A DNA stretch of 64,000 nt, taken from positions 1-64,000 of the forward strand of contig JAFCMP010000206.1 in assembly GCA_017506865.1 (NCBI GenBank), written 5' to 3'. Origin of the DNA: Tribonema minus. Taxonomy: Eukaryota; Sar; Xanthophyceae; Tribonematales; Tribonemataceae. Shown piece after piece: positions 3,501 to 63,950 of the stretch (the first letter of the stretch is position 1; every line of letters begins with the position of its first letter). Position numbers and translations under genes: made by a program. A model generated the notes under the pieces. That model had not been told where the DNA came from. It did not search any database and saw only the letters and a program-made list of their open reading frames with translations.

Positions 3501-6500
3501 GAGGCGCTGCATTGCAGCTCTGGTGGTGCTTGTGACATGTGTAACATTGCGGTAGACACTCCATGCACGGGGCAGTTAAGTGATTGCCTTTGGTGAATGG
3601 TGAACGAGGGGCGGTTGCAGCGCAACCGCTCATCAAGCGGTGTTTTCGCTTGGCAGTGAAGGCCGGCATACCCATGCGCAGTCACCAATGGACTAGCGGT
3701 TTTGCTCAAGACAAGAAAATGTTAATGTCAGCGATTGGCTCATATGCGCATGCAGCGCCGTGCCCAAGACACCAAGCGCTTTTGCGGGTGAGGTCGGGTC
3801 AGATCATCCGGGAAACAAACCGCATGCTTGACCCGGATGCTCATGATGAGTGCTGGTGCCGAATGCCGAATACGCTCGCAGGAGACCTGCACTGCCGGCT
3901 TAGCCCTAGCCCTAACCCCCTCCAAACGTAACGCTACATAAACTTAGCCCTGGTCGATCGCCTGCGCCTTCAAAGCCACCTCTTGGCAACACTCTGAACG
4001 CGCCATGGCTGTCACCGCTGCTGCGCCGTCCACTCCAGATCGCCTCTCGCATCAAAACCTCAAATTCAACAGCACCCCCCCCCCACAACTTCAACTTTGT
4101 CAGCAAGCCACCACGCGCCGCGTGCGGGCAACTTCATCAGTAAGGCAGCAAACGCCGCGCGAGCCGCTTGCGCGCGCCTGAAGTTCATTAGCACCCCCCC
4201 CTCCCCCGCCAACGTCAGCTTCATCAGCAAGTCAGCAGCAGCGCGCCGCGCGCGCCGCCGCCCGCATGCACTGGAAAAACGCCCCCCGCCCACATACCCC
4301 CAACTTCAACTGTGATTTCAACTTTGTCACCCACGCGCACCTGAACGCCCCCCCACACTGCGTCGACGCCTCCGCGGCGTTGATGAGCGTGTCCAGCGCG
4401 CAGCGCTCAGCCTCGGGCACGTCGCCCACACACGCACACCCAACTTCAACTTCAACAGCAAGCAGCGGCACGCCGCACCTGAAAAACGCGCCGCCGCCCT
4501 GCGTCGACGCCTCAGCGGCGTTGATGAGCGTGTCCAGCGCGCAGCGCTCAGCCTCCGGCACGTCGCCCAGGGTCACCTGCGGCGGCGGCGGCGGGGGCGG
4601 CGGCGCGGAGCTCCTGCGGCGCGCGCGCGGCGGCGGCGGCGTGCCGCCGTCCTCGTCGTCGTCGTCTTCGTTGTCGTTGTCGGAGGTCGAGCCGCGGGCG
4701 GAGGCGCGCGCGCGGCCTGCGCAGACGGCACAGCGGCGGGCCGTGATCAGCAGGCAGGATGTGAGACGTGATGGGTGGACCCGCTCGTGAGTGCAGCAGT
4801 GGCAGTGGTACGACGCAGGTCTGCATACTTGTATGACATGTGTGAATTCGTGCGCGAGTCCGGGCAACAGCGGAGCGTGTCGGCGAGGGCGCGTATCGTG
4901 CAGTTGAGCGCTGCTGCTGCTGCTGCCGCGCGTCGCCGCTGCCGCGCCCCGCCGCCTGATGATCCGGGGGGCGTGAACACCGTGCCTGAGGCGCTCATGC
5001 GCGGAGCGGCTCACAGGAGCGTGCGATGCGCGCGTGCGCAGCTTGCAGCAGCGGCTCACCGTGCACCACTGCACCCGCTGTCGAGGGGGCTGGCTTCACA
5101 GCCCACAGCGGCGATCGCTCATGCGTTTGCTGAGTTCTGTGCTGTCACTATTGGAAGTCGCCGCAAGTTGCTCCTAAGCATACAGTATAGTACACCGTTC
5201 CTGCTGCATATGCGCCCTGTAGCTGGCGCCCCCCTAGACTCGCGCGCGTCGCACCCGCGCCCCGCGCGTCACACGCCGAGCACTGTGCGCATGCTGCATC
5301 CTCGAGCCGCAAAGCGCCCTGGAGCAGCGTTTGCATGCACTCAATTGGGACTTGGATGCATGACAGTGGATGAGGAGGCATGCACACCTGCAAATGACAC
5401 TACTTCTCAGCCTTGCTGAGAGCCTAACCACTCTAATGCTTGAAGGTGCGCACGCCGCCTTCGCCGCCGCCGCAATTTCAAAAGGCTTCCGCAACCTGGC
5501 TCAGTACAACATCATGAGAACAATCCCCAGCACCGGCAGGGGGTGCAGCAGCTCTGCCAGACGAACCGCAGAGCGATCCTGCAAGAATCGAGAGACTTCG
5601 CAATGACCACTCTTGCCTGAGCTGCAGCCCACGCCAGCGACCGCTAGAGGGCTTTAGAGTATTTCCGAATACTCTAATTGTGCTCTGGACTAGAGAACGG
5701 CACAACAAAAGCGAGCGTACGAGGACCCGAGACGTTGTTTCTGGACCTCTTCAAATTAGTATGACAAATGACAGTAACGTGCCTGTAGTCTCCGGGGCGT
5801 CGCCATCGCCTTCATCGTCGCCGTGCCCCTTACTGTACACGTCGGCCGGCGTCACGCGCTGGCTGCCGCCGCGGACAGCCGGCCTGGGGGCGCGCGAAGG
5901 GGATTTGGTGGGGGGGGGGGGTTTGGGGGGGGGGGGGGGGGGAGTATGCATGAGATCCCATTGCCGACGTACAACGTAGATGGTTGAGTGCTGATAAAGC
6001 ACAGTTTTGCGGTCGGCTGGCAACAACATGCGTCAGCACACCGGTACCGCGCGCGTCTGCGCCAGCCTGACGCAGCTTGCGGAAGGTGCCGCCGCCGTGC
6101 GCTACATCTTCATTGATGCGCACCCTCCGTCCCTGCCAGCGGGCCGCCACAGCCACGTTTGTCCTTCGGCTTGACCGCGTGACAGCGAAACGCTGCGACT
6201 GCCGACAGATCACGATAAGTCAGTCACCATCACTACCGCACTGCGCGTGCGTCACAACAACACACTGCAACGATGCTTGCACACGAGAGGTAGGCGGACA
6301 TGAGCGCGCGCGCGCGTGCATTTGAGCGCTGCTGCGGATGCCCGCCGCCGTCGGCGCTGCGCGTACCGCCTGCTGAACCACCGCGCGCGCACGCACACGT
6401 GAGCGCGCTTTCCCGGGAGCGTCCATCATTGTCGCCCATGAGGGTGGGTCCGCCATTGATGCCTCTCCATGCGTCACCAACGCCGCTCTCATTCCGCTTG

Positions 6501-9500
6501 CGGCGAGGGTCACGTGGAACGCGCATCAGAGCTCGTGCCGCTGCGCCTCCGCGGCACTGGAGTGCTGGTGCAAGTGACTTGCCGTGACTTCAACTTCCTC
6601 AGGCCGCCGGCACGGCACCACAGCATACACACCTCCATGACTCACTCACTGACTCTCGACTCCCCTGTGCATCGCCGCATCCGGGCCGTCGGGGGCAGCG
6701 GCGCGCGCGCGCCGCGCACACGACCTGCCCGTCTTCACAACCACTCAACTCGCAACTCACTGACTCACCTCTGCGGCGCCGCGTCCGGGCTGCCGGGAGC
6801 CGCGAGCGCGCGGCGTTCGCCACTGGCGGCGGCGGCAGCGCCGCGCTTGCGCTTGACGAGCGCTGACGCGGGTGACTTGCCGCCGTCGCGCGCGCGCACG
6901 TCGCCGCGTTGAGCGCTGCTGCTGCCGGCGCGCTTCCTGGCGGGCGCAGCGGCGGCGATCGCGGCGACGGTGGCGTCGTCGTCGCCCACGGCCGCGGCGT
7001 TCTCGCCGTCGCTGGCGTTTATCGCGCCTGCGTGTTCGCAGCGCGATGATCATAGATGTGCATGGGCGTCAAGTCGCGGGGCCAATCCATACTGCGAAGT
7101 AGTTTACAGCTGAAAGCTGGGGTGCCACAATTGTAGTGGCCATTGGTGCTGCCGCGGCCGCGCTGTTGGCGTCGCTGGCTTTCAACACGCCTGGCCACAA
7201 AAGCGCATGGAGGCGAACATGCGTGAGTGTGCGGCACGCGTTGTGGGGAGTCGTGAGGGCAGCGGGGTCACAGCGAGATGAGCACGTCCCAATCCTAACC
7301 CTAAGGGCATCACCGCGAAGCAGTGGACATCGGTGACAGCAGCTCAGGGTGTGTCGATCTACATAGCGTTCCGTCAGCACGCCGCATGCTCAGCAGCGCT
7401 CAGCAGCGACGCAGTCAGCGTGCACTGCGGGATGCTTGCCACAAGTAGCCTAAGGGTACCTACCCGTGTGTCGCTCACGCAACAACTTCAATGTGGCCAT
7501 GCCTGGATGGGGGTGCCGCAGTGCAGAGACAAGTATGGTGCGCTCACTGGTTGTCCTACGCAGGCGCGCCACTCACTTGCCACGGTGGCCAGCAGCTGGG
7601 CCTTGCTGAGCCGTGCGCGCATGCGCGCGCGCCGCGTGCTGGCGGCGTTCGCCAGGCGCAGCGCGCGCCGTGCGGCCTGCATGCACACAAACGAGGGGAC
7701 GCAGCAAATGGGTCACTGCGGTACATGGGTCACTGCGGTACTTGCGATGGAGGATGACAGCAGGCTTCGGTAAGGTGCCGACGCGGCAGAGGGGAGGGGG
7801 GGAGCGGCGTGCGGGGCTGGTACATGGTTCGCCAGGCGCCGCGCGCGCCGCGCGGAGGCGACGCTGCACAACACCGAGGCATCATGCTTAATTACATGCT
7901 GTTGTCAAGTGTATGAGAATGACTCATCACAGAAGTAGGCTCTGCGGTGCACTTGACCTGGGCTGCGCAGCATGAGTGAGTGCACAACAGGTCAAGGTGG
8001 CGGTACCCCCAGGCTTACTGCAGTACGCGCTGGAGGGAGACAGCAGGGTCCGGCGTGGTACCCCGGCGACAGGGGGAACAGGGGGGGGCAGGGGGGCTGG
8101 TCCATAGATGCAATGTGCGGCTAGCACAGGAGCGTGGGCAGGATGCGCAGCTGGCTGAGGGCGCTGTCAACCACTTCACGCGCGACCTCTCTGATCAGCC
8201 AATGTAGTCGAGACGTTCACGAAGCGCACGCATGTGATTGCAGCAAGCGTATGGAACCGCTCGGCGCATTGCGCGTGTAGCCGGATGCAGACGAAAGTGC
8301 ACTGACGATCGGAGCACTGCGGGCCAAGATTAGGCGCTGATATCCGCGTGAGGGGGTGCGCTGTGGCACGCACCAGTAGAAGATTGACTTTCTTTGATAT
8401 CGCATTGTATTACTGCTCAGTCGCGGTGCGCGTGGATGTGAAAGTGGCGCCTAGCGAGCTGCGGGGTTAGCTGCGTCATCTTACTACGGAAGGTGGGGTG
8501 CGGGGCTGGTACATGGACATGATGGGTGGCTAGCACAGGGGCGTGGATAGCATGCGCAGGTGGCAGCGGGCGCCTCACGCATGCTCGTCTCTGATTGGTT
8601 GATGCATTCGAGGCGCTCACAAAGCGCACTGATGCGCTTGCGGCGATCTTACGGAAACGCCAAGCGCGCCGCATGCGCAGCCGAAATCCATAGAACGCGC
8701 ACTGACGACCGGAGAACTGTCGGCCAAGATTAGGCGCTGGCATCCACGTAAGCAGTGCGCTACGGCACGTCACCCGAAGAATATTGCGGGTGTTTGATAC
8801 CACATGGCTGCTAACCCTAACCCTAAGTCGCGGTGGGCATCGACGTGAAAGTAGCGCCTGGCAAATTGCAAATGCGGATGCATCAGCTCACTATAGAAGA
8901 AGGTCATGTGCGTTTCCTGCGCTGCGGGGGGCGGAGAGCTGGGGGGGCAGAGGGAACGCGACGGACAGCCTGCGAGCCTCCGCATCCTACAAAGGGCAGG
9001 TGTCATTGCTCAACGGCAGACAGTGACTCTTGTCCCTAGGGAGCTGTGATCGTGCGCCCGCTCCGCCAAAGGGGGTGTTCAGCGGATGCAGGCAGGCATG
9101 CATGGCAGCGCATGCCTGAATCCCGACAAGCGAGCTCACAGGGATGGTGAGGATACACACCACACCCCTCACTTTCAAGCTCACAATTCTCGACCTCAAG
9201 CATGCAACTTCAACGCTGCACTCGCACCTGCTCCGTAAGCGCCGCGCGCTCGGCGGGCGCGAAGCGCGCGGAACACGGGCAGCTTGGCGGTGAACGCATA
9301 GCGCACGTGGAAGAGCAATTCATCAACTTCAACTGTGAATCCACCCCTTCAAGCATTCAACTTCAACGCTGCGCGCGCGCACCTGCTCCGTGAGCACTGC
9401 GCACTTGGCGGGCGTGAGCGCGCGGAATACGGGCAGCTTCGCGGTGAACGCGTAGCGCACGCGGGAGAGCAAATCATCAACTTCAGCTGTTAATTTACAG

Positions 9501-12500
9501 CTTCAAGCATTCAACTTCAATGGTGAAGACCCACCTGGTCCGTGAGCACGGCGCGCTCTGCAGGCGTGAGCGCGCAGAAGACGGGCAGCTTCGCGGTGAA
9601 CGTGTAGCGCACGCGGGAGAGCAATTCATCAAATTCAACTGTGAATTGACACAAACTTCAAGTATTTGACTTCAACTGTGTGCGACCCACCTGCTCCGTG
9701 AGCACCGCGCGCTCAGCGGGCGTGAGCGCGCGGAATACGGGCAGCTTGGCGGTGAACGCGTAGCGCACGTGAAAGAGCTGCGCGTTCTGCGACCACGGTA
9801 CGCCCTCCGTTGTCGGCAGCTGCAGCGCTCGGCACGAGGCGGCGTACAGCAGTAGCGCACACACGTCAGGCATAGTGTGGCAACACGCTAGATGGGGCGC
9901 GCGCAGAAGAGGCGCACGCACATGAGACATAGCAACGCGCTAGATGGGGGGTTCGGTGCACAGAACTCGTGCCACTTCGGTCCACAGAATGCGCGCGAGA
10001 CTCTGCGTCCCTCTGGGATTTGCACTGCCTCAGCGCCACACTGGTGATGTACGGTGCAATGCGTTCAGCACGAGCAGACATGCCGGGCTGCATGAAGCCA
10101 GCCTTGCGCTCAGACGAATTGAGAGAACCACAACGAATGTCTTTAGTGCCCTCGCTGTATATGCAACCGCGTGCAGCGAGCGAGATCAAGCGTCTCTTCT
10201 TGTCGTCGCACTTGTGCACGGCCTCATGGGCGCATGATGACTCTGTGGAACGATCAATGCAGCCTGAGGCCGAAGGATGTTGTGCGTCTCGCGGGACACA
10301 AAAGGCGTGGTCAGCACGGTGCTCAAGGCTGACGCCAGACGCATCAGGTTACTCCTTTCGAAATCGCCCGATGCGATCACGCGCTTCGCCGCATACCGCA
10401 TGTTGCTTTGTTGAAAGCGTCGGTAAGGGCATGGGGCACGTATGTGCGGCGTGACTGCAGCAGCAGCTGCAGCGCTCCACAAAATGGGCACTACGCGCAT
10501 CAGGCCGATGCGTCAAGGTATAGACCCACTCCTGGCTCTCAACTGTCAGGTCCAAGGTGCATGTGCGTCTTGGCGCCGTACGCAGTGCGCGCTGACATGC
10601 AGCTGCAGCACGCGGCTCGACAGGTTTGCATTCGTGAGCAGTGCTTGTTCAACACCTAAAAACTTCAATTTCAACTTCACATTGCGCTGACAAGTGCCCG
10701 CATTTGTGCTGATGCTGAATCTCTGTCCACACAACATGCGTGCGCTGTCTGCAACCACGTCGCGATCGGCAATGGCCGACCGGCAATGGCCGAGCGCTGC
10801 CCTCAGTGCGAGGACCCCGCTGAAGAGATACTGACGTCGAAGCGCAGAAGCACAGGCTGACGCGCATGCCACGCTGCAGACGCCCCCTGACAAAGCAGGG
10901 GTATGTTAGCCTGTGTACCCTACCCTACCCTACCTACCTACTACTGAAGTACTTGCTTTCGTGGTCATGCTGCCGTCATCCTGAGGAGTCCGCTGATGAG
11001 TACACTACGCCTCTGACACCGACATCAGAGCGCAGAAGCGCAGGCTGCCGCGCATGCCACGCTGCAGAGGTGCGTGATGAAGCAGGGGTGTGTATAGCCT
11101 GTGCACCCCAACCCAACCTACATGCTTGGAAATACCTGCTTGGGGTCCGCGACCTCCGCGATTATGTCGAGCTTGGCGATGGCCGCAATTGACTCCAGGG
11201 GTATGTATAGCCCGCGCACCCCTACCCTACCTACGTACCTGCTTGGGGTCCGCGTCCTCCGCGACCATGTCGAGCTTGGCGATGGCCGCGAGCGGCTCCA
11301 CCCTGTTGGCGTTGTACACATCGCTCAGGAACATCGACTCCAGGGGTATGTATAGCCTGTGCACCCCTACATACCCTACATGGCTACATACCTGCTTGGG
11401 GTCCGCGTCCTCCGCGACCATGTCGAGCTTGGCGATGGCCGCGATGGACTCCACCCTGCTGGCGCCGTGCACATCGCTCAGGAACATCGACTCCAGGGGT
11501 ATGTGTAGCCTGCGCGCCCCTACCCCCTACATGGCTACATACCTGCTTGGGGTCCGCGTCCTCCGCGACCATGTCGAGCTTGGCGATGGCCGCGATCGAC
11601 TCGACCCTGTTGGCGTCGTGCACATCGCTCAGGAAGAGCTCGTTGGGCAGCGCGGGGCCGTTGGGGAGCGTGCGCAGCATGGCTGTCGGCACGTCCGTGG
11701 GGCGGTAGAACCAGCGGCACTCGATCTTTTTGGCCTGCCGCATGTCCTCCCACATGCGCGCCACCTGCCGATTAAAACAATGGAGATCATAACAACAGGA
11801 TCAGAAACCATGGGAATCATAACATGAGCAGTCTTGCCACCTGCCAAGACTCGGTACTATCGCAACGGTGAAGGATATGGTTATGCCGCATGTCCTCCCA
11901 CATGCACGCCACCTGCCGCATCGACACGGCGCGATAGAAACAGTGGAGATCATGAGGGAGAACAGGCGTATGGAATAGAAGGCACAGTTTTAGTGCGGGG
12001 AGACTCGGGGAGGCAGCAGCGTAGTGCCAGCACTTGTTGACTGCCACGGGCCAACAACACGAGGCACGTGGCTGAAGCAGAGCCCTACTGTAGCTGGTGG
12101 GCAATACAGAAAGCATGTCCAATCATGACCGTGGGGCGGTAGAATTAGCGGCACTCGATCTTCTTGGCCTGCCACATGTCCTCCCACATGCGCGCCACCT
12201 GCCGATAGCAACAGTGCCGGATCACGACAACAGGATCAGTCCCGCCACCTGCCAGGACCCGGCACTATCGCAACGGTGAAGGTCGTGATAATGTCGCATG
12301 TCCTCCCACATGCGCGCCACATGCTGCAACATAGCGCGATCGTTACGATGAAGATCATGGTAAGACCTACTTAGTGTTGGCGAGGGGGCTTAGCCATGGC
12401 TCTCGGGCGCAGGACCTATAAAGATCATGGATAATATTAGTCTCGGTGAGGAGGGTTCAGCCGCGGCTCTCGGGCGCTGATCCTTGTGATCGTTGCGCGC

Positions 12501-14706
12501 AGCAGTTGAAGTTTGCAGTTGTTCCTCTTGGAACACCACTCTGATGCTGTGTGTACACACCAAAGCTCGCTTGTGACACCCGGATTGCTCTGGCGTAGCA
12601 CTTCATGGTGTGAGAGGCCTCTCAGCCTACAGGTGCACATACCTGTATCGTACATGAGTAGGACAGCAGCATCGGCGCATGAGGTGCTTGCCGCAGCTTG
12701 TTAGTGCAGGTAATTATTAAGGTACATGCAATGTAGGTGTGTAGGTTTCAAACTCCGTCAGTTAGGGTTAAGGTTAGGATTTGTTGGTGGCATCGCCAAA
12801 ATCACCGACGCGTGAAAGCCGCACCGCCACTCTTCCGTTGTGCGCGGGGAATGACAACGCCTCATTCATGCCCAGCACTAGACGCAGTTTGAGACCGCCG
12901 CTCCTGAGCACCAATTGCATTGGCAAGCAACGCACCTTCATCAGGACACGATGGCAGCAAAGTAGAGGTGCAGGTGAACTTCAAGTGCACGTGGTGACGC
13001 ACCCTCCAACGCTGTGCCGCAGGGCGGCCCCTCCCAGGCCGACGGCCACACTGGCAGTTGAAACACCGGCCCAGCTGCGGCGCGGCCAAACAGCTCAGAC
13101 AGAGTCCTCGCGAGCAGCGCGAAAGGCGCACTCTCACACGCGCGCACGCACGCACGCACACTCACTCACACATGCTGCGCGCACGATCGCCACCGCACGC
13201 TCACTGATACGGTGCCGCGCACACACACGCGCGTGCGCGCGCGCACGCGAGATCGACTGCTGATGCGCCATCGACAGCTGATGCGCACTTACCAGCGCCA
13301 GGTGCCGCGGCGCGTGGGGGTCGCTCTCGGAGGCCTCATTGAGCAGCTCCACGGCGTCGTTGACGCACACGCGCGCACGCGCACAAGTGCCACCGCATGC
13401 TCACTGAGACGGTGCCACACACACTGTTGCGCGCGTACACACACGCGCGATCGACAGCTGATGCGCAATCCGCAGCTGATGCGCGATCGGCAGCTGATGC
13501 GCACATACCAGCGCTAGGTGGGGCGGCGCGAGGGGGTCGCTCTCGGAGGCCTCGTTGAGCAGCTCCACAGCGTCGTTGACGCGCAGGATGCCCGCGCGGC
13601 CGGGCAGCTGCGGGGGGCGCGCATTAGCGTATAAAGAGGGTTGGTGTTAGGGGGTGGCGTTAAGGGCGCTAATTGGCGAGCCGCAGCCTCGCAAGCAGGT
13701 GTAGCGTACTGGTTTGAAGGGCGCGCGTTCGCGCATGTAGGGTTGGTGTCAAGGGGTGGCATTAAGAGCGCGGATTGCGAGCTGCAGCCTCGCGAGCAGG
13801 TGCAGCTGTTGGTTCGAGATTCATCGTTTGTGATGGAGCCATTGACGTGGGAAGCGACTGCAAGAAGCATTGGAAGGCTCTGGTGTTGTCAAATATTGGC
13901 ATGGGAAACAGACTCAGTCCATGGTCAATAGTGGTGATCCTGTGACCTTTGCGGATCCTTGTTTGGCAGCATATGCGGTCCACGCGCGCCTGACTGCGGT
14001 GCCTACTGCTCATGCCCCTCAAAATCCGAAGGCAGTATCTGAGGGCTACGGCTAGGGGTGAGGTTTGGCGCACAGTCGCCACAGCGTCTCAGGATCGCCG
14101 CTGCGCCACGGGCCGAGGGGCTGTAGCTACCTTCAGCTGCTGCATGCAACATGACTGCCTCGTCGCAGCAGAAGAGCACGCACACGCGCGCGTGCCAACG
14201 CCGCAGCACCCCGCCGCACTCCCCCGCGCCAGCAGGCAAGCAAGTGCCTACACTACCGACTAACGTTTGGCGCTCAAGCCACAACTGCCTTCGGCACGCG
14301 CCGCGCAAGCCGTGCCGCCGCAATCCGCAGCAGTGCTACGCGGCGCAGCGCTCCGCCGCGACGCGCAGCAGCAGTAACAGCAGCAGCAGCGCTCACACTC
14401 CCCGTCGCGCGCACTCACCCGCATGGCGTCGTAGTACATGCGCCGCGCCGACGTCACCGGCCCGGGCACCTGCGCGCCGATCCACTCGTAGCGCGACGTC
14501 GTGGGGGGCGCCGCGGCCCCCCCCCCCTTCCTGCCAGCGCCAGGTTTCCCCCCCCCCACGGAGGCCTTGCCAGCCCTGTCGGGCGCTGTCGCGGCAGCGC
14601 CACTGCCGCTCGGTCGCTTGACCGTGCCGCCGCCGCCGCCGCCGCCAGAGTCCCTGCGTCTGCCGCTGGCGCGCGGGGCGTCCCCGGCGTCTCCTTTGGC
14701 GCTCAT
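539..14706 (-). CDS. BAH-domain nuclear protein, multi-exon gene (3' end not in hand)
   Basis: Likely chromatin reader or adaptor; the nuclear role is inferred. Exons read on the minus strand: 14706-14419, 13607-13509, 11764-11543, 9819-9691, 7676-7577, 7027-6769, 5883-5783, 4716-4479, 3113-2952, 2327-2210, 1700-1385, 1036-756 and possibly 625-539. The first twelve give 771 codons with no stop, and phase matches at every junction, which is the main support. Exons 2-4 form a BAH (bromo-adjacent homology) domain, residues about 97-246: WFYRP, then ELFLSD and VESI, then a closing FHVRYAF strand. The remainder is low complexity: Gly/Ser/Lys-rich N-terminus, a KRKRG basic motif in exon 6, an acidic Asp/Glu run and Pro tract in exon 8, and Gly- and Gln-rich exons 11-12. 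The start ATG at 14706 opens the GC-rich coding part; an in-frame ATG at 14904 lies in AT-rich DNA. Most donors are GT; exon 7 ends at AG/GCACGT. Exons 2, 3, 4 and 8 carry junction duplications. No more specific family recognised. Confidence 0.72.
4341..4716 (-). repeat. BAH-gene exon 8 with one downstream copy of its 3' end
   Basis: Exon 8 ends at 4479 in TTCAG/GTGCGG. A second copy of its last ~80 bases ends at 4341 in TTCAG/GTGCGC, 138 bases further into the intron. Both encode the same GDVPEAERCALDTLIN core. The spacer contains AACTTCAACTTCAA. The copy keeps an open frame and a usable donor. Confidence 0.8.
8092..8885. repeat. ~410-bp direct duplication inside a BAH-gene intron
   Basis: Two diverged copies, about 8092-8475 and 8503-8885, lie head to tail. 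Both contain GGGGCTGGT, GGCTAGCACAGG, CCAAGATTAGGCGCTG and AGTCGCGGTG in the same order. A third fragment starting GGGGCTGGTACATGG lies near 7815. The second copy carries a telomere-like insert absent from the first. No coding potential seen. Confidence 0.75.
8812..8828 (+). repeat. Telomere-type repeat inserted in one duplication copy
   Basis: Two CCCTAA units sit between CTGCT and AGTCGCGGTG. The sister copy at about 8413-8425 reads CTGCTC directly into AGTCGCGGTG, so about 12 bases of telomeric sequence are present in one copy only. Confidence 0.8.
9228..9819 (-). repeat. BAH-gene exon 4 followed by three tandem copies of its 3' half
   Basis: The full exon ends at 9691. Copies of its last ~90 bases end at 9535, 9383 and 9228, a step of 152-156 bases. 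Each retains the HVRYAFTAKLPVF-like sequence (the middle copies start LLSRVRY) and a GTGNG donor. The two nearer copies are open; the farthest has a one-base insertion that shifts the frame. Each copy is preceded by a TGAAGTTGATGA-like stretch instead of an acceptor, so they look like donor-only fragments, not cassette exons. Confidence 0.85.
11136..11543 (-). repeat. BAH-gene exon 3 3'-end tandem copies
   Basis: Downstream of the real donor at 11543, copies of the exon 3 end recur with donors at 11392, 11239 and 11136 (steps 151, 153, 103). The codons for FLSDV, RVESIAAIAKLDMVAE and DADPKQ are kept with conservative changes. The reading frame is open through the first two copies including the intervening intron-like sequence. 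Each is followed by GTATGTANCC-like intron start and a CCTAC-rich spacer. Confidence 0.85.
11764..12330 (-). repeat. BAH-gene exon 3 5'-end copies in the upstream intron
   Basis: The exon 3 acceptor and first codons (GGCAG/GTGGCGCGCATGTGG) recur upstream at about 11912, 12198 and 12320. The 12198 copy is longest and carries a stop (TAA where the real exon has TGG of WFYRP). The 12320 copy has lost the acceptor AG. Together with the 3'-end copies, this exon is bracketed by decayed pieces of both its ends. Confidence 0.8.
13293..13509 (-). repeat. BAH-gene exon 2 with one downstream 3'-end copy
   Basis: Exon 2 ends at 13509 (GCGCTG/GTATGT). A copy of its last ~80 bases ends at 13293 (GCGCTG/GTAAGT), 216 bases away, and still encodes VNDAVELLNEASESDP in an open frame. 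The spacer holds CACGCGCG-type simple sequence and GATCGNCAGCTGATGCGC short repeats. Confidence 0.8.
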
Positions 14707-17557: not shown

Positions 17558-17930
17558 CTGAGATCCGCTCGGACTCCCGGACCGGCGGCGCCCATCTGCG
17601 ACGGTCACCCTGAAACGCAAAAAGCAACCGAGCACTTATGCTATAGTGAGGTCAGTCAAGACACTTAAACTGTTGAAGTTGGCTAACAGTAGGTTGTTGG
17701 CCTCACTCAGGCGCACCAGAAGAGCTCTTGGTTGTTGAAGTTGAGGTGGGTGGAGCCGTGCTATTGCACGTTGAGCAGTGATGTGACAGTTGAAGTTAGC
17801 ATGAAGTTGAAGTTTGAATATCACCGCTGAAGTACAGTATCACATCAGGATCAATATCAACTTCAATAAGTGAGTACTACTAGTAGTCAGCAGATGCCCC
17901 TGACATGGGGCTACAGCATGCCATAACCCA

Positions 17931-39200: not shown

Positions 39201-42200
39201 TGATAAATTCAGAGTGCCAGTAGCGGTCAACACATCACATTGATGAGCACTGAGCACAGGGCAGCTTAATGGCTGCACCTGACGCATCCTTGTCATCGGT
39301 TCGGCGACAGGAACTCAACAAGAATTCCAAAACGGGGGCTTGATGAGGGCAAGTGCAGCTGTGCGTACAGCTCGTGGCACATCACCAGTCTTTGGGCACG
39401 GATAGCTTGCTTTCACTGGGTGTGTCTCACAGTGGCAGCTGCAAAAGCTTGAATAACCCTATCTAAACCTTACACTGACGGTAACCTTCACTGCAGCCTC
39501 AACCCTGATGGTGACCCTATCTACCAGAGCGCCAGGTCTAGCAGCTGCTGCAGCAGCCAGTGGCGGCGTCAGCATGACCCAACGCATGTTGAATCGGATC
39601 AGCAGTGGCCGCATACGTTATGAGTTGTACAGCTGGCCAACGATGCGCGCCATATCAGCAGCAGCGGCGGCATGCTCATATCGCACATGTGCTCTTGACT
39701 ACACCGTCCAGCTACGTCGGACAAAGTAGTCAGCACTAGAAGAGCAGTAGTTGCATACTTTGAAGTACATCATGCACTGTGAAACTGGCCAAAGATGCGT
39801 ACCATATCAGCAGCCGCAGCATGCCCGTATCGCGCAGGTGCTCGTGGCTGCGGCGGCACCTGGCGACGAGCGTCGCGACGATGAGCGCCTCGTTGCGCAG
39901 CGCTCTGTCGTAGCTGCCGCGACCCGCCTGCGTCAGGTGCTCAAGCAACCTGCACCAGGCGCACAATGGCGTGTGCGGGGCGGGTAATAAGGACGCAGTA
40001 CGCGCAGCCTCTCGTGCCTTTGGCGCGCAGATGCGGTGAAGCTGTATACTGTACTATGAAGCGGGTGTTGGTTTTTTTCTTGTTCAAAGGTTGAGGTTAG
40101 ATTTTTGGGGTTGCAGCAGGTTGAGATGAACATCAGTGATCCTGAGCGCGCAATTACAATCACGGCTGCCCCTCTGCAGCAGACCCCTGTGCAGCAGACG
40201 CTCAACCCGCCTGCAGAGCGCACAAAGTCGTGCAGAAGGTCAAAAGCGGGTAGCACAAAATAGGTGTTGCCTTCAGTGCAAAGCCACGCCGGTGATGCGC
40301 ACATGCTCAATGCTGTGGTGAACCCGGGCTTTACCACTGAGCTCAATTGCTTGTGCACACTATAACGGGCAGCCTCCCCCTTCTGAGGTACCGGGACACA
40401 AACACCCCCGCCCCCCATTTTCACAATACCGGACGTTGGGGGCCGCTATTTGCCATGGCTGCTTCCTGCCCTGCTTGGTAACAAAAAATAAAGTTCCGCA
40501 GCGGAGGGTCATCTCAACATGGTGAAGTGCTGTCACTGTTGATGCGCTGGCACTGCGCCAGGCGCTTGACAGGCCTGTGGAGCACACGCTGTTGCAGAGG
40601 TGTCGGCGGAGTATCTACGCACTTCAAGTAAGTGCGTGGCAGCTGCGCACATATACCCTGTGTGCCTTCAGTACCTGCACTTGCTGTGCGTCTCCTGCAT
40701 CTTTTGTGCGAGGCTGCCTGAAGTGTTCACGGCCGACAGTGCGCTTTGTGGCCATTGCACCCCGTAGGTGCCATCAAGGCGGGCAGAACACCTGACGCGT
40801 TTTGCAGCAGGCAAAAATGCCTCTCCAGGCCAGTACGAGCTTCATTGACCAGCAGTGCAAGGCGCACTGCACGTGCAGAACATATGTAACAAACTGGTTC
40901 CATAAACCACACATGAAGAATTCAGCTACACGCATACAACGACCATATTGCAGGGAAGTTAGTGCTCAGCTAGCGGCACCCTAACCCTACCCCGACGTGC
41001 TGTGCTGGCGCATTTTTCGGACATGGCATGCCTGTGTTGTGGTGCCTTTGGCGTGTGCCATGACCCTCCTCTACACCTTCCCCTCACGCCTACCCTGACG
41101 TCAAGCAGCCTAACCCTAACCCTAACCCTAACCCTAACCCTAACCCCAAGACTCACCCTAAGCACACCGGCACAGTACGTCGGCGAAGTACCGTCAGTCC
41201 TAGCGGTTTGGCGACGCCACACAATCGATCGCCGCCGCGAGCTTTGCACTTGCTTGCACCGCCCTTGGCATTTGGAATTTATTAGCTTGATCTAGGGCAG
41301 TTGAGCTTGGCATTAGGGTTAGGGTTATAATCAAGCAGTATTTAGGGTCATCGCGCTTGCCTGCAGAGCGCCTCGACGCTCTCGCGCGACGACAGCGCAA
41401 ACGCGGCGTTGGCCTTGCGCGCCACGAGCAGCAGCTCGCTCCTGCTGCTCGGAGCAGCCGCTGTCTCGATGGCATGCTGCCGACGCGAGTCACAGCAGTG
41501 CACGGATCAGAGTTCAGAGTTCACAGTTCACAGTCCATCAAGTGCAGCGAGCTGCGGTGTTGCGACGTCACGTGAGCTTCTGCTTCGTGAAGGCAACGCG
41601 GCGCAGCAGTTGGCAGTTCAGGGATCAGAGTTCAGCGTGCACAGTTCATCAAGTGAATAGAGTTCAGAGTGCACAGTTCACCAAGTGCAGTGAGCTGCAG
41701 CATGGGAACGTCATATGTCTTGCTTCATGAAGACGACAGAGGCAGCTGTTCGGCGACTGTGTAGCAGTGCAGGCTGAACAGCACACACATTGTTGGTGTG
41801 GGCACAAAACCTGTGAAGCTGGTTTCTGCAGCTCCAACGCATAAATAACATCTACAGCAGACTTAACGGGGCGCCGAATCGAGAACTGCAGCGTTTCTCA
41901 GTGCCAGAAGCGTGTGGGGGCACGCACGCGGTGAATGCATCAGTGCTCAGTGTTATAAAGGCAAGGGGTAGGGTTTGGACCACGTTGTGAGGACTGAAGT
42001 TGAGGATAGGGTCAGAGTGAGGATAAGGGGTAGGGTCAACATGTACATACTCCGCATGCAGGACAGGCGTCATACATCAAAGTATATGTAGACATACCAT
42101 TCTGTTCCTTGGTGAAAATTGGTTTAGGGTTGGGCCACGAGGTTACTTTCAGGCCAGGATATCAAAGTATAGAAGCATATAGGCCGCACCATTCTGCACA

Positions 42201-45200
42201 CGATTACAGTGAGTCAACTTCAGGTGAAATTTAAAGTGTGGGCCACGAGGTTGCATACACGCCAGGCATCGCTGATGTTGGCGCACCTGAGAGTGCTCCA
42301 AGGCATTCCAGAGCGTCTCTATGGCTACTTGCAGCACCCCTCTGCGTAGGTGCGGCCCAGCCTGTTCGGGCGGCGGCGGGAGACAGCGGAGCAAAGTCGT
42401 GACGCGCAAATCAGAGGCTTCGTGAACTTGTTTGCGCGCCTACGCACACGAAAGCGGAAATGCGGCCGCGGTCCACAGGACAAAGGACGGGGCTAAGGGT
42501 TGGGCTCAGGGTGGGGCTTGCAAGGTGCCATACCGCGGCGCTTAGATCAGTAGGGCTAGGGTTAGGGCTACAGTTAGGGTTCGGGTGAGAGTCAGCGGCC
42601 CAACGTCAGCTCAGCACAGACATAAGTTCTGAGCACACCTGCTAACATGGCTACAGCCGTTGTTACAGTGTCTCCCTGCACATGGCCAGGATTGCCAGCA
42701 CCTGGACTCACGCCCGCATGACGACTGGCGCTCCAGACTAGTCCACTGCTATCGGACCTTGCTGCTGACAAGTGATGAGGCACCCTCGAAACATTTCGTG
42801 CGCGTCCATGCTGTGACTGCACGTACGTGCACGGTGTTCCCAACGTGGGTTTCCGCACCTCAAGCGGAAGTTAGTCAAGTACTTTGCAGTCAGCAATACC
42901 TATTTGAGACTATAGGCATAATCCGGCTATTCATGACATTCAAATAACACCTCACAAGGTATTTGAAACGTGACTGTATGTATGTCCTTCTGATTGGGCA
43001 TTGATGGCCATCGGCGCCTGCGCGTGGCCTGCAGCAGTCCGCTCCGTGCATGCGGCCATTGTGCCTTTCTCGCTCTGCGCTGAGCGCGTGCATGTGTCTC
43101 ACGGACGTGCTGCGATTCCTGTGCGCAATATGCTGGTGTGCTTCACTGGCGATGAAACAGGCCGTTGCCCAACAGCTGACTTGCCAATTGCTGTGCACTT
43201 GTGCAAATGGCATCTGTCTGTCCACAGCTATCAGTTGCTCCCAAAAATCCGCAGACTGCGGATGGGCGGACCCATGAACGTTGACATTTTCACGCGCTCT
43301 CAATTATCTGTTGCCCAGTCTGGTCACTGCGTCACGGCGATACTTCAACACTGCAGGCCGCACCTGTAAGCACCGCACGAGGGACGCCACCACGCCCTCC
43401 GTCACCATGCATGCGCACATTGTTGCGTCTGCGGAACAGGCAGCGGCGCAGCGCGCAATGCAGCGGCAGGTGTGAATGTTAGCGTTCTGCTGCCGTGAGT
43501 AGAGGTTAACCCTAACCCTATCTCTGACCAACACAAATGCACCTGGTTGGCTGCATACCGCTACCGCAGCAGATGGGGCGCGCATGAGTGCCTGTGCTGC
43601 AGCATGGATCAAGGCCATCTGCGCATCACGTACACGTGGAGACACGATTCAGGAGCAGCGCATGGGCGCCGAAAGCATGCACACCATTTCTAGCCTAGTT
43701 GGCTAGTGACGTATGCATTCAATACAACATCTCGATACGTAGTGTCAAACAGGTACCGAGATACGATGTATCGCCAACACCTGCTCTCATTGCTCACCCT
43801 TGGACAGCTGCCTGATGAGACGCACGAGGGCCAGCAGCACGCGCGCAACGGGTGCAGCACCAGGACATGTGGCGACGCGATTTTGGCAGCAACGCGTGTG
43901 CGCCGACCGCATACACACCAAATCTAACCTAGTGGTTGCGGAGTCAGCTTAGGAAAAAGCGTGGAGCTTAGGGTCAGAAACAGCTGTCCCACTTGATCGC
44001 GCTGCTCACCCTTGGACAGCTGTCTGATGAGACGTGCAAGGGCCTGCAGCGCGGCCGGGAACGCGCGCGGCGGGTGCAGCACCAGGACATGCGGCGACGC
44101 GATGTCGGTAGCAGCGTGTGTGCGTCATCCGCGTAAACACCAATTTATTCTAACCAAGACGTTGCGGATTAAGCTGCGGCAAAGCGTAAAGGCTAAAAAT
44201 AGAAAAGCTGCCCCACTTGCGCGCGCTGCTCACCCTTGGAGAGCTGCCTGATGAGACGCACGAGGGCGAGCAGCGCGGCGGGGGACGCGCGCGACGGGTG
44301 CAGCACCAGGACGTCCGCCGGCGGCGGCAGAGAACCTTCCTCGGAACACTCGTCGGAACCGTTGCGGTTAACGGGCGATTCCTGCAGAGCAGGCACGCAG
44401 TTGCAGTTGCAGTCGCAGGGGTGAGCTCCCTTAGTGCTCTGATTGCAGGCGGCGGGCCCAACGCTGTTTTCATCCGCTAATGTCAAGACAGAGACCGCAG
44501 AAACAGAGAGGGCACCGAGTTGCTGCTGCCAGCCTTTCTGCTGATTCTACCGGGTGATACTGAGAAGAGTAGTGGAGCAATGCTGCAGCAAAGGCAGGGT
44601 GGTGCGCGGCGGCAGAAAACCCATCGCGGCAGTGCTCAATGGCGCCCTGGCGCGTCGTGCGCGCCGTAAGATGACGGACACCGTTCGCGTGCAGCAGCGG
44701 CGAGGGGCTGTTGGTAGTAGCCAAAGCCAACCTCTCGATCCCGGCAGTAGCTCTGTCCCTGGCCCTTGTGCAGAGCGGAGAGCAGTCGTCCACCGTGCTC
44801 ATGAAATTATTCTGGTGCACGCTTTCGCCAATTCCGCTCCGGGTATGTATGTTCTTGCGCAGCGCATGAGCCCCCGCAAGCTTCACAAGCTGCCGGGCGG
44901 TGCCACGTCTACCTGCACCTCCGTATGCTAAACGGAGGGTTTAGGGTTAGGGTAAGGGTTAGGGTTAGGGTTGGGCACGTGCGCTGCGCTCCTCACAAGC
45001 GACAGATGCTACGAGACACACAACGCGCTTGAAAATGCGATCAACGAAGCCGCGCAACATGTGCCGGCGCTCGCCGCGCAGCGCCCTGCCCCGCAGCACC
45101 CCCTGCCCCCCCCCCCCCCCCCCCCTCACACACACCCTCGTGTAACCTCAAGCGCGTGCACATGTACAGTCGTCATCAGCACCAACAGCAGAGCTTTTTA

Positions 45201-47178
45201 TGTAGGCTTCAAGTTACAGATTGCACGTGATTCAGCGACGACGCACCTCATCCTCGCTCGCGCCGTCGCGCCGCGCGGCCCACAGCACGCGCGTCAGGAC
45301 GTGCTCTGACGCCTCCGCCAACTTCAAGTTACAAACTGCAAGCGATCAGCGGTGACGCACCTCGTCCTCGCTCGCGCCGTCGCGCCGCGCGGCCCACAGC
45401 GCGCGCGTCAGGACGTCCTCCGATGCCTCCGCCAGCTGCGCCACCGCCGCAGACACCGCGCCCGACGCCAGCAGCATGTCGCGCTGCGCCGCGCGCCGCC
45501 GCCCCGCCGCCGCGGCGTCGTCGCATGTGCGCTTTGCTATCGTCCTCAGCGCGCCTGAGATGGAGGTTGCGCGCGGCACATTTGCACGTCAACATCGACG
45601 CTGGTCACGCGTGGTGAGCAGCAGTGCAACAGGGGTGTTCAGGCCTGGGCGGGTGTCAGGGCATGCGTGCGTCGGTATATGTGGAGCTCACTACAAGTTC
45701 ACCAAGACTTCACTGAGAGTCCAATGCACGACATCGTGTGAGTTCGTCGGTACCGACAAGGGCATCTGGCCATCGCATCGCACTCAGCGCACCCAGAACA
45801 ATCTGACAGTTGGTCACGGTGCATCGGGTCCTCACAGCCATTACAACTTGCCAAGCACGCGCTTTGCCGAGGGCAGACTGCACATGTGGACCATGATGTG
45901 GTGTACTGGAACGTGTGTGAGCAACCGCTCAGGAGCAGGCGGGCATTGGGGCCTGAATGCACTCACATGAGGGTGTCGGGGGGGGGGTGATGGATACGGA
46001 CACGTCGCCAACAGTCCCCAAAGATTTTGTCAAGAGTGCACCAAGAGTTCACTGGGAGTCACCAACCAGCTGCGGGCCTGCACGACCCGACATCGATGCT
46101 CGTACGACTCAGCTCCATCATCTAGTTTGTGCAGGCAGCCTGCTGCACTGCAGATGTACTTGACGCGGACTCCAGAGTGTTGCGCTTATCACAAGCGCCC
46201 GTGCTCCAGAGACTGAAGCGAGCATGCGGACGGAACGGCGCTCCACTGGTTCTATACGGTCGAAGGCTGCTGACTATGTAGCATGCTTGCCTTCGCCATG
46301 ACTGTCACATCATCTGTGCAGGAGAGGGGGCATGCTCCACATGTACGCCAACAGCAAGTCTCAGTCACAACCGCCGTCTGACATGAACAGCCGCGGCAGG
46401 CCAAGCGATCGTGTTGCTGTTTACGGCCTGCCGACGCTCAACAGCCTCACAAATTCAACTCAAAAGCTGGTCGAATGGTTCTCGCCTTGCGTCGCTCACC
46501 TGCACACGCCACTTGCACCGCCTCATTCAGATCCAGCATGGCCGCCAGCGACGCATAGATGTCCTGCACCACCGCATCACCGCTGCTCAACCGAGACGCC
46601 TCTGCTGCGTTCTGGCAGAGCGGCGGCTTGGCACACATGCCGATGAGCTGCTGCAGCTGGTGCTCAAAACTCGCCGCTGCTGCATCAGCGAGACCCTGCA
46701 TGAGAAGGGGTCATTGGAAAGCAACGATAACATGTCAGTGCTTTGCGCGGCTGAAGCTAATGGCATGTTGCAGTGATATGCTGGCTTGCAATTAGACTAC
46801 AGGTGCCCACATTTCTGGCTCGTGGTCGGATCTGCTCTCACGCCAACTCTGGTGCAGCATTCTGCGCCAGATACATAAGCCATGCATACAATGACTACTT
46901 CATTCTCGTTTGAGCTGGCAGTTGTTTCTCACCTCTACTCTGTCCCATACCAGAGGCAGCAGCTCCCTCACCCGTGGCAGCTGATTGAGCGGCAGGCCTC
47001 CGGCATCAGCTGCAGCTTTGTTCAAGCGTCGTAGCACCGCCAACTGCCTGTCGTATAACTCTGCCGTATCCTCATGCGTGAATAGCCTGATGATTCTCAT
47101 TATGGCAGGGAATGCGGCTACGGCCGCTGCGGCACGCTCCTGGGCTGACACATCGCCTTGTTGTTTGCCTCTTGCCAT
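27213..47178 (-). CDS. CFAP69: Cilia- and flagella-associated protein 69 homologue, 24 exons
   Basis: Armadillo-type protein of motile cilia; in animals CFAP69 is needed for sperm-flagellum and olfactory-cilium function. Exons: 47178-46933, 46695-46500, 45554-45361, 44797-44682, 44463-44234, 43596-43559, 43489-43364, 42361-42287, 41476-41361, 39949-39803, 38883-38714, 37888-37737, 36602-36528, 35192-35076, 34658-34587, 34001-33897, 32997-32896, 31983-31771, 31520-31368, 30772-30563, 29818-29690, 28830-28697, 28104-27876, 27332-27213. All phases agree, giving about 1154 codons (animal proteins about 940). Matches run collinearly: GLPLNQL in exon 1, ETLWNALE (exon 8), SYDRALRNEALIVATLVA (exon 10), IREAIVGNRRTEARFL (exon 18), LWMEEEERLGV (exon 20), FRIGDAWLRV plus a coiled coil (exon 23), and a basic Ala-rich tail. 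Exons 9, 13 and 22 use GC donors. Least certain are exons 4-6, 13, and whether an exon is missing before the last. Confidence 0.85.
30503..30560 (+). repeat. Degenerate telomere-like tract at a CFAP69 donor
   Basis: CCCTAACCC, GGCCTAACCCCC, AGCCCTAACCCC and CTACCCCTACC in a row, abutting the exon 20 donor at 30563/30562. On the transcribed strand this is a G-rich stretch right after GTAAGT. Confidence 0.7.
35200..35345 (+). repeat. Degenerate telomere-like tract
   Basis: About 145 bases of G/A/T-rich sequence made from TTAGGGT, GGGTCAG, GTTAGGA and similar variants, beginning directly at the acceptor side of CFAP69 exon 14 (exon start 35192). It reads as an old TTAGGG array that has drifted. 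Confidence 0.6.
35880..36602 (-). repeat. CFAP69 exon 13 followed by six or more tandem 3'-end copies
   Basis: Exon 13 ends at 36528 in CTACAG/GCAAGT. The same exon end recurs with junctions at about 36415, 36307, 36192, 36084 and 35978, and a degenerate one near 35890, a step of 106-115 bases. Each copy contains GCGCACGTGCCGCTGAGCAC and then a CTACAG-like junction. Most keep a GC dinucleotide at the donor; the copy at 36192 has lost it (CTACAAAC). Spacers read ACTTATACTCAGACTTGTCC-like. Confidence 0.85.
38510..38714 (-). repeat. CFAP69 exon 11 with one downstream 3'-end copy
   Basis: The exon ends at 38714 (GCGCTTG/GTGAGC). A diverged copy ending at 38510 (TGTAG/GTATGT) encodes ELLWSLLVEQLREGAEAL against GLLWSLLADLSREDSEAL in the exon. 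The step is 204 bases and the copy's donor remains canonical. Confidence 0.75.
39651..39803 (-). repeat. CFAP69 exon 10 with one downstream 3'-end copy
   Basis: Exon 10 ends at 39803 (CTGATATG/GTACGC). A shorter degraded copy ends at 39651 (CTGATATG/GCGCGC), 152 bases away, with the GT changed to GC. The spacer otherwise looks like ordinary intron. Confidence 0.65.
41109..41148 (+). repeat. Interstitial telomere-type repeat, six CCCTAA units
   Basis: The longest perfect CCCTAA tract in the window, inside CFAP69 intron 9. Shorter or degenerate TTAGGG/CCCTAA tracts lie nearby at about 41311-41326, 42551-42590 and 43507-43522. Confidence 0.95.
43798..44463 (-). repeat. CFAP69 exon 5 with two downstream 3'-end copies
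   Basis: Exon 5 ends at 44234 (CCAAGG/GTGAGC). Copies end at 44010 and 43798 (steps 224 and 212) with the same donor. They keep GTCCTGGTGCTGCACCC, CGTCTCATCAG and CAGCTGTCCAAGG. The intron start GTGAGCAGCGCG is copied too. The farther copy lost a few bases and no longer aligns in frame throughout. Confidence 0.85.
44937..44975 (+). repeat. Interstitial telomere-type repeat, TTAGGG orientation
   Basis: About six TTAGGG-like units, one reading TAAGGG, inside CFAP69 intron 3. The opposite orientation to the tract at 41109 shows the repeats were not laid down as a single telomere end. Confidence 0.9.
45247..45554 (-). repeat. CFAP69 exon 3 with one downstream 3'-end copy
   Basis: Exon 3 ends at 45361 (GACGAG/GTGCGTCACC). 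A close copy of its last ~65 bases ends at 45247 (GATGAG/GTGCGTCGTC), 114 bases on, still encoding LWAARRDGASEDE. The spacer contains AACTTCAAGTTAC, and a related CTTCAAGTTAC follows the copy, so the duplicated unit includes intron sequence. Confidence 0.85.
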
Positions 47179-50400: not shown

Positions 50401-51197
50401 GGCAAATTAATGCTCCTGCGGCAGTGACATCTACATGTGCCACTTGGTTTGCCATCCACCAGTCACTGCACCACCATCAGTGCCTCAAAGTACTGGAACG
50501 GTGACAGCACCGTCTGTGCCAGTGATGCAGCCGTTCCTTGTGGCGCCTGGTCAGGCAAGGCCAGTTGCTGTTGAAGAAGTATCACGCGGTGTTACGATGA
50601 GCAGCACCTTCACGTTACCCACCACCTAAATACAGAGCAGTTTTCACTTGCCATGGTACATCAGCCATTCAGTTTCATGTGCTGCAGTGTGCCTGTGCAG
50701 CATTCAGAATTGCGCAGACTGTGCTTGCATGCTTACCATGAGGCATCTGTCTCTGTGAGCACGCCTGTGCTACTTGCATGATTCGGCATGAATGAGTCGA
50801 CAAAGGTTAATCTGTACTGTAGCCTTGCATACTAACAGAGTCCAAAGTTCACAAAGACTTCATTTCACCTGTGCTATGTTACCCGTACGACATTCAGGCA
50901 ACTCTTAACGAGGCGCGTCGCATCGACAACACCTGGACGCACACTGCTGCAGCAGTGCCATCACATTGTTCATTTGTCACCCAAGTAAATCACACGTTGA
51001 AATGCGTGGACGCCGATGACGATCACTCACGCACGTACTGTGTGTACTCGCCGCGCGCCCGCTGCAGGGCGGCCATGTTCTTCATCGTCGTGGGCATTCT
51101 GACGGAGTACTGGACGGGCCAGAGCATGCCCCAGCAGGTGGAGACCATGGCCTCCGTCATGGGGCTGCTCCCGCTGGACTACGAGTCCATGTTCTGA
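47476..51197 (+). CDS. One-helix LHC-superfamily protein (HLIP/OHP type) with plastid presequence, 5 exons
   Basis: Probable thylakoid chlorophyll-binding protein in photoprotection or pigment-protein assembly. Exons 47476-47577, 47724-47817, 47914-47981, 48744-48853 and 51068-51197 join in phase to 167 residues; all donors are GT and all acceptors CAG. Residues 1-20 are a signal peptide (hydrophobic VVSAVLALAAA) ending in VEA/FTAAP, an Ala-Phe site like the ASAFAP motif of complex red plastids. A middle acidic, then charged helical part follows. The last ~55 residues hold the LHC signature: E-I-N-N-G-R, with Arg built across the exon 4/5 junction, A-A-M, a single hydrophobic helix FFIVVGILTEYW and T-G-Q. 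One helix only, so it is not a three-helix antenna protein. The final intron is 2.2 kb. A member of the OHP2 or RedCAP-like branches cannot be excluded. Confidence 0.85.
48854..51067 (+). other. Intron 4 of the one-helix protein gene
   Basis: Begins GTCAGTCG and ends CGCTGCAG. It contains an open frame of 151 codons on the plus strand (49972-50427) with TATATA-rich sequence but no recognisable domain. Otherwise no feature found. Confidence 0.6.
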
Positions 51198-62622: not shown

Positions 62623-63599
62623 AGTACCAGTGCATGGGCAACGGCAGCCACAATGGTGACGCACACACTTCGTGGTGACACCAGAAAGGAAGGAGATGAA
62701 GAAAGGTGAAGGAAGTGATGTGCAGCAAACCTGCACATTACAGCTCAGGATTGCTGCTCTCGAACAAAACTGCAACTTCAGCAACAACCTCAACTAGTGT
62801 ACGTCACCTTCAATGCGCGCAACAGCGTATACATCACACACCCAGTCAACAGCTTCACGTGAGCTTGACTGAAAAACTGTGCGCTGAATGCCTACTCTCA
62901 CTTGGTAACCTCAATGCTTGTTCATCTATAGACAAGTAGAGTTTTCACTACATGCAGCCAGCAAACTCTTCCTACCCCTGTCTTCAACACATGCAAAAGG
63001 CGCGACATCGTTGGGACTCAACTGGTACTGAGCTGTGCTTTATGGCACAGCCCTCATGTAGCATGCGTTATGACAGCATGTACCCATCATGATGATCAAT
63101 CAAGGCAGCCAGCCGGCTTGTGGTAGTGGAGTAGGTGCTTGATGTGCGCAAGGCAAAACACTTCCTGTACGACATCTTGATGCATCCACAATGCTCGACG
63201 CTGTTAAGTGAGCAGCAGCTTGCCACTTGCATGTGGAAGTTCGAAGGGTCGACATTGGGGGGGCTGTTCGAGGTCGAGGTCGCGGTAAAGATGACAGAAT
63301 CAGGATGTGCAGATGACAGGCAGCAGGCACTTCAACATGCGCCAAGGTGGTCGACGCAGGTGCACAAGTCCAGTCCGCATCACCAGCGCGCAGCAGAAAC
63401 AGCAGCGTGTTGTGTACAGCAAAATCAGCGCCGAGCGACCACGGAGCAGCGAGCAAGAGAGAGAGGGGGAGGGAGGGTACTGCATATGCACGAGCTTACA
63501 AAACACGCCGTCGCACACGTTGAAAAAACACACACAACAAAGCGCCTCCGCTGCCGCAAAGGCAGGCTCCGCCGTCACGGCCGTCCAAGGACGACGTAC
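62623..63599. other. Region downstream of the retrotransposon
   Basis: Plain sequence after the second target duplication, with no supported gene. A minus-strand frame near 63230-63290 (TSTSNSPPNVDPSNFHMQ) could be exonic but lacks a clear acceptor. Confidence 0.35.
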
Positions 63600-63793
63600 A
63601 CGAATCTATCGGGGTGCCGCAGCAGGCGCCACACGCGCGCAACGGGCTCGTCCAAAAGAGGGGTCGCGTCGACGCCCTGAATGGTGACGCGCTCGCACGA
63701 AAGCGCGTCGCCGGAGCCGTCGCGGCACGACAGGCGCACGCTGTCGCGCAGCGTAGTGGGCGCGCCGCCGTCCAGCGTCGCCGGTATCGGCAT
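63600..63793 (-). CDS. Exon of an unidentified minus-strand gene
   Basis: Acceptor GCCGCCGCAG at 63794, then an open frame beginning MPIPATLDGG and including LRDSVRLSC, ERVTIQGVDATPLL and VWRLLRHPDRF. A GTACGT donor follows at 63599. The frame would otherwise end at a TGA near 63575, so this could instead be the last exon. High-GC third positions match the other genes here. No domain recognised; the gene continues beyond the window's right edge. Confidence 0.5.
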
Positions 63794-63950
63794 CTGCGGC
63801 GGCGGCGGCGCATGAGGCATATGCTTAAGACGCTGGCTGCGATCATTGCTTGCAATCATCGTCGCGGCAACGCGGAGGCTGCGAGAGCCGCACGCTGTCA
63901 CGCAGCGTCGTCGGCGCGCCGCCATCGAGCGTCGCGGGTATCGGCATCTG
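63793..63950 (-). repeat. Upstream copy of the 5' end of the 63.7-kb exon
   Basis: The acceptor and first ~70 bases (CCGCAG/ATGCCGATACC...) recur with the acceptor at 63948, exon-like sequence from 63947 to about 63875, a step of 154 bases. The copy keeps MPIPATLDGGAPTTLRDSVRL and then diverges. Here the duplicated end is the 5' side. Confidence 0.8.

Follow-up and report, generated by a model that had tools for sequence, protein, structure and literature searches.

Tandem duplications in sampled DNA of the xanthophyte Tribonema minus preferentially span a single predicted exon-intron junction

Tribonema minus belongs to the Xanthophyceae, a group of the PX clade of Ochrophyta. The window analysed here is a stretch of 64,000 bases (positions 1-64000 of contig C206, which has 68,939 bases) of its genome (158.18 Mb, 554 contigs). 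An initial annotation of this DNA described blocks that hold one exon end together with adjoining intron and are repeated in tandem inside the introns of a BAH gene, of CFAP69 and of a gene with an exon at 63.7 kb. Is the position of such arrays tied to splice junctions, or were they noticed there because the reading began with the exons? The CFAP69 gene of the window was confirmed by a match to PF21049, and the CFAP69 and BAH genes match the deposited T. minus entries JKP88DRAFT_290358 and JKP88DRAFT_255790. The protein deposited for the BAH gene (P0009) has a precomputed assignment to PF01426, which we take to be the BAH domain.

The census was begun with repeats, detected by self-comparison, and not with exons. 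It covered the window, two stretches of 100 kb and one of 50 kb, 314 kb in total, all cut at round coordinates; the additional 250 kb belong to contigs known only through earlier matches. An array was kept if its step was 50-500 bases, and arrays with a step below 50 or above 500 or with fewer than 50 aligned nt were excluded. Most of the sampled DNA is without annotation, and the exon map was therefore produced by a small ab initio gene model trained on the T. minus genome itself, with tubulin, kinesin and CFAP69 exons as seeds and without the use of RNA. The model recovers most of the seed exons, with zero exons at one kinesin locus (L035), and it also labels many copies as exons. In stricter tests, predicted exons lying wholly within arrays were counted as copies, and some tests leave out predicted exons shorter than 20-40 nt. 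Junction mapping was applied to 80 arrays, namely 78 in which one edge but not the other falls within a predicted exon (one-junction arrays) and two with both edges in exons; eight of the 80, in which no copy junction was mappable, were left out of the counts.

In the window, TRF, repeat finding and self-BLAST recovered the arrays at the places and with the steps that had been described. There are 16 local tandem arrays with a step of 50-500 bases, of which five touch no exon and 11 are one-junction arrays, nine of the donor type and two of the acceptor type (Table 1). The array at 4.3 kb, which is counted among the 11, is ambiguous. Its junction-like boundaries at 4340 and 4478 are 138 nt apart, which equals 46 codons, the frame is open across both copies, and the exon model as well as P0009 read through them. 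It may therefore be an in-exon repeat that is read through as coding. The acceptor side of the third BAH exon (11543-11764) and of the 63.7-kb exon was also said to be copied, and mapped copies were found at both. In the case of CFAP69, five one-junction arrays were obtained, one of them weak, and the exon numbers given earlier could not be matched one to one. The CFAP69 exon with a GC donor at 36527 has a matching segment, LPLTSIQQLQ, in the homologue P0008 (compared by eye), and this exon is missing from the deposited CFAP69 model P0007. P0007 has an additional ALARLIRQLSK segment at the 43632-44323 array, and P0009 includes copies of the 10827-11635 array as exons; segments of these two models match copies at the 43.6-45.4 kb and 11.1-11.6 kb arrays.

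Table 1. One-junction tandem arrays of the window, with the adjoining predicted exon and the mapped junction copies.
Positions	Strand	Array	Step (bases)	Exon and its junction	Copies at	Method
4332..4569	-	two copies of BAH-gene exon end and adjoining DNA (ambiguous)	137-141			repeat finding, self-BLAST, exon model
9193..9778	-	donor-type array	152-156	9691-9819, donor 9690	9534, 9382, 9227	TRF, self-BLAST, exon model
10827..11635	-	donor-type array	103-153	BAH, 11543-11764	11391, 11238, 11135	TRF, self-BLAST
11695..12359	-	acceptor-type pair	434	other end of BAH exon 11543-11764, acceptor 11764	12198	self-BLAST
13178..13585	-	donor-type pair	200-216	13509-13607	13292	self-BLAST, exon model
29281..29746	-	weak donor-type pair, 70 aligned nt	397	CFAP69, 29690-29784		self-BLAST
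35878..36596	-	donor-type array	103-117	CFAP69, 36528-36653, GC donor 36527	36414, 36306, 36191, 36083, 35977 (five mapped; TRF copy number 6.4)	TRF, self-BLAST
39633..39849	-	donor-type pair	152	CFAP69, 39803-39949	39650	self-BLAST, exon model
43632..44323	-	donor-type array	212-224	CFAP69, 44234-44381	44009, 43797	TRF, self-BLAST
45207..45437	-	donor-type pair, 89% identical	114-115	CFAP69, 45361-45554	45246	TRF, self-BLAST
63728..63998	-	acceptor-type pair near window end	154	63575-63793	63947	self-BLAST, exon model

The window contains other features as well. A long open frame at 57143-62515 (5370 nt) is nearly equal in length to one at 30710-36067 of the C522 sample (L022-L023, 5358 nt). 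Their codon-position GC is identical and the window frame has a reverse transcriptase domain (PF00078), so that the two probably represent one retroelement family. A predicted nuclear gene at 47476-51197, which matches JKP88DRAFT_238520, codes for a small plastid-type protein with relatives in Phaeothamnion and Chrysoparadoxa. This protein is presumably light-harvesting-like, with a signal peptide that seems to end in the A-F motif of secondary red plastids. An AT-richer stretch at 17119-21347 carries inverted and direct repeats of ~90-470 nt with 70-86% identity, which are perhaps a transposable element.

The arrays extend beyond the window. In the 314 kb, the census gave 126 arrays, among them 78 one-junction arrays (43 donor-type and 35 acceptor-type) and 34 touching no exon; the remaining ones lie within one exon (7), enclose an exon (5) or have both edges in exons (2). 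Given the exon map, the sampled DNA is thus rich in local tandem duplications, and most of the detectable ones contain exactly one splice junction. Random placement had been set beforehand as the refuting test of a junction bias. Local shifts of 1-4 kb gave 23-27 one-junction arrays against the 78 observed, with a maximum of 41 over 500 rounds at each of six settings. With GC-matched placement 28 were expected, and GC content was rejected as the cause. Arrays that enclose a whole predicted exon number 5 of 126, compared with 28-33 expected. It could be argued that tandem duplications are ubiquitous and that the bias was created by a reader who began at exons. Arrays are indeed frequent, but the excess persists in a census that starts from repeats, which contradicts this explanation and makes it highly improbable. 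An assembly artefact was rejected for the great majority of arrays because the copies differ by several to 35% and each carries private differences; one array, at 38040-39283 of the C522 sample (step 413), is 100% identical between copies. A motif shared by the arrays was also considered. The density of TTGAAGTT/AACTTCAA in arrays (0.73 per kb) is hardly above that in non-exon DNA (0.59), and this candidate was discarded, while GGTTAGGG/CCCTAACC is moderately enriched in arrays (0.65 vs 0.28 per kb). As an observation in its own right, TTGAAGTT/AACTTCAA in non-exon DNA exceeds the 0.03 per kb derived from composition about twentyfold, with no special tie to arrays.

Genes identified by homology gave a view of the arrays beside better-supported exons. 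On comparison with solved structures, fragments of predicted proteins matched glycyl-tRNA synthetase, D-lactate dehydrogenase, an ABCG transporter and a UPF1-like helicase. Exons covered by alignments with structure homologues are adjoined by 21 one-junction arrays, and a junction array is present at 15 of 36 homology-supported functional exons. When intervals were set by hand around five genes (these four and CFAP69), 32 of 47 arrays were one-junction arrays, compared with 8.7 expected and a maximum of 18 in 1000 placements. The claim that the coding exon remains single was borne out in glycyl-tRNA synthetase, where the extra segments either duplicate residues of the solved homologue or are absent from it. 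In the comparison with 4qei, which we take to be the human enzyme, two pairs of segments each cover one stretch of residues twice (43-64 and 487-507), and 70 further residues (query 140-209) have no counterpart. Self-BLAST of nine tubulin/FtsZ or kinesin loci revealed repeats at four of them (L007, L008, L034 and L036) and none at the other five (L003-L006 and L035). At L036, acceptor copies precede two motor exons and a donor copy follows another.

The units of the arrays have a characteristic geometry. The step to the nearest copy is 97-224 bp in 61 of 72 mapped junction arrays (median 155, quartiles 130-185), and the copies, 2-11 per mapped array including the functional one, stand head to tail. 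Spacing varies by a median of 6% within an array (34 arrays) and by 39% between arrays; such regular, array-specific spacing is found in ordinary minisatellite arrays too. The broad range of steps fits, without demanding, a process on the nucleosome scale. The exon part of the unit has a median of 58 nt (10th-90th percentile 35-103 nt, 72 arrays), compared with 65-72 nt (26-157 nt) in the simulation described below, and the intron part has a median of ~100 nt. The exon break lies beyond 60% of the exon at only 9 of 75 ends, where simple placement predicts 33% (p 4e-5) and the simulation 22-25%; the skew is therefore clear against the former null and weaker against the latter. Twelve exons have copies of both ends, and in each of them a core of 8-93 nt is present only once. 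If breaks were independent and uniform, the product probability of this would be 5e-6, but that null shares the weakness of simple placement. Eight two-copy units (8 of 13 young, near-complete units) have a junction overlap of -7 to 12 bp. Among nearest pairs, significant similarity extends into the intron part in 26 of 39 donor and 31 of 32 acceptor cases, so tandem duplication fits most of them. Consequently, insertion of a junction without its intron part was rejected, the exceptions being 13 donor pairs and 1 acceptor pair.

Do the copies have a function of their own? They could serve as alternative exons or as decoy splice sites under selection to regulate splicing. Most of them retain the dinucleotides of a splice site (GT/GC in 71 of 75 donor copies, AG in 56 of 76 acceptor copies), and in this formal sense the decoy sites of the initial annotation exist; deposited gene models even include some copies as exons. 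Identity profiles were computed from alignments reaching at least 25 nt on each side of the junction, with ascertainment equalised. In 48 pairs of functional and copied donors, identity is 0.85-0.93 on the exon side, 0.95 at +1/+2, 0.89 at +3/+6 and 0.73-0.77 from +7 onward. For 43 acceptor pairs the exon side reaches 0.85-0.89, the AG 0.87 and the sequence beyond the AG 0.70-0.79. The intron side is thus about twice as divergent (~0.25) as the exon side (~0.12), and the step comes right after donor +6. This two-fold step is expected of dead copies. Pairs of copies (5 and 10 alignments) have no step, with wide noise and with alignments from the same array that are not independent. The profile corresponds to a constrained original and an unconstrained copy, and evolution of the copies looks like that of dead sequence. 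Two earlier profiles, in which ascertainment was not equalised, gave higher exon-side similarity between donor copies; the selection on copies that they suggested was not upheld after equalisation.

Other measures of coding constraint were compared as well. The copies contain 6 stops in 1419 codons, a count limited to copies at least 70% identical and set beside functional exons that are stop-free by model construction. Of 287 differences between paired donor copies, 127 fall at third codon positions, more than at either other position, as functional copies would lead one to expect, but this excess can be derived from silent changes of the exon between copying events and is proof neither way. 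The step to the nearest copy modulo 3 is distributed 22:29:21, which speaks against functional copies, as do the extra segments without a counterpart in the solved glycyl-tRNA synthetase. Taken together with the profiles, these data make function of the copies improbable. Read on the predicted exon map, function stays with the copy that continues into the remaining exon; the others are seemingly intronic and diverge like unselected DNA. Two further parts of the initial annotation were narrowed. Donor copying predominates in the window (9:2), but outside it donors and acceptors are almost level (34:33), with 43:35 overall. The decay of copies with distance from the exon is a trend only: mean identity of the exon part by rank is 0.81, 0.83, 0.79 and 0.67, and the nearest copy is more alike than the farthest in 20 arrays, with the reverse in 12 and 2 ties (p 0.22). 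The junction bias stands, while donor predominance and decay are not general.

Exons change slowly, and a pair of exon and copy therefore stays recognisable longer than a pair of intron sequences. When the functional exons were masked, an end at most 10 nt from an exon remained in 38 of 85 arrays, and in 31 of these the distance was at most 3 nt; the ratio of 38:47 is about 4-fold above the 0.17-0.20 from uniform placement. We also ran a forward simulation with uniform duplication, a selective filter, neutral substitutions and indels, silent exon change and an identical BLAST census. The simulated ratio of one-junction arrays to arrays touching no exon is 0.16-0.19 and the observed one ~2 (78:34, or 78:39 without inner copies), an excess of about 10-fold. 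The size of the excess is test-dependent. It follows from both tests that selection and detection alone are insufficient, unless introns had ~150-400 nt when the copies arose. In simulations with introns capped at 150 nt the ratio is 3.78, and with a cap at 400 nt it is 0.68, so a strong placement bias is unneeded if introns grew recently from such lengths. The data therefore require either a placement bias or introns that were short and grew recently. In all comparisons (shifts, GC matching, homology intervals and simulation) array position depends on gene structure, unlike that of ordinary minisatellites.

The second of these options supposes that short duplications arise uniformly and that selection leaves the intronic and one-junction ones, in introns that were at that time too short for a tolerated unit to avoid a junction and that have since grown by these duplications. 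The observed ratio lies between the two capped simulations, and arrays with whole exons are depleted as the filter predicts. However, detectable arrays occupy 16% of the non-exon sequence, and removing them from the simulation gives a ratio of 0.26; exon breakpoints are non-uniform too, less clearly so against the simulated null. We regard this explanation as rather unlikely. The best explanation, to which we assign a probability of about 0.6, combines junction-spanning tandem duplication and a tolerance filter with preferential occurrence at exon edges. Template switching with little homology during replication or repair would generate short duplications, and selection would purge any that hit a whole exon, the interior of an exon or two exons. 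One-junction copies would be tolerated because splicing by exon definition pairs the two nearest sites across the exon and ignores copies outside it. Mammal-like exonic splice enhancers are mentioned in passages on the related brown alga Ectocarpus (PMC12477816), whose tandem repeats are said there to be spread rather evenly. Beyond the filter, duplication itself would fall preferentially at exon edges; as a possible cause we favour a proneness of outer exon regions to breakage or template switching, linked to exon-placed nucleosomes or to transcription-linked R-loops. That a mutational process of this lineage favours donor and acceptor edges several to ten times over other parts of genes, and that introns lengthen by dead junction copies, is a tentative proposal, to which we would give slightly less than even odds.

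Several known systems resemble the arrays. Introner elements are one dispersed family altering many introns of one genome, and in T. minus many introns are likewise altered by repeated DNA. Judged on the 35.9-kb array alone, one family at many unrelated loci is not seen here: a genome search in which very common words were skipped returned only the array itself and one weak 83-nt match. In tandem exon duplication, the source of mutually exclusive exons, a whole exon with both splice sites is repeated beside itself, whereas T. minus copies one exon end and seldom the whole exon. The closest case in the literature consulted is a potato gene (PMC4974935), in which a tandem duplication also crosses an intron-exon boundary and carries the splice signals along. 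There, RNA reads show that a single event created a new intron together with an inserted segment of exon; in T. minus many genes have arrays, and the extra copies, read from DNA, appear to stay inside a longer intron. The crossing of a boundary by which intron gain through tandem duplication is recognised was found in 78 of 126 arrays, on predicted exons. In the Rogers AGGT model, as outlined in PMC4974935 with a test in ATP2A2, an exonic segment holding AGGT is duplicated; local tandem duplication interacts with splice sites there as well, but arrays within one exon are only 7 of 126 here. In a search of open-access literature, which did not take in the T. minus genome paper, we recognised no report of junction-spanning tandem arrays as a genome feature.

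For gene annotation the arrays matter directly, as both deposited multi-exon T. minus models examined (P0007 and P0009) carry copy-matching segments. They would also let one study, as a natural experiment, how the splicing machinery selects among near-identical sites roughly a hundred bases from each other, and they would exemplify both a transposon-free route to intron lengthening and mutation linked to gene structure.
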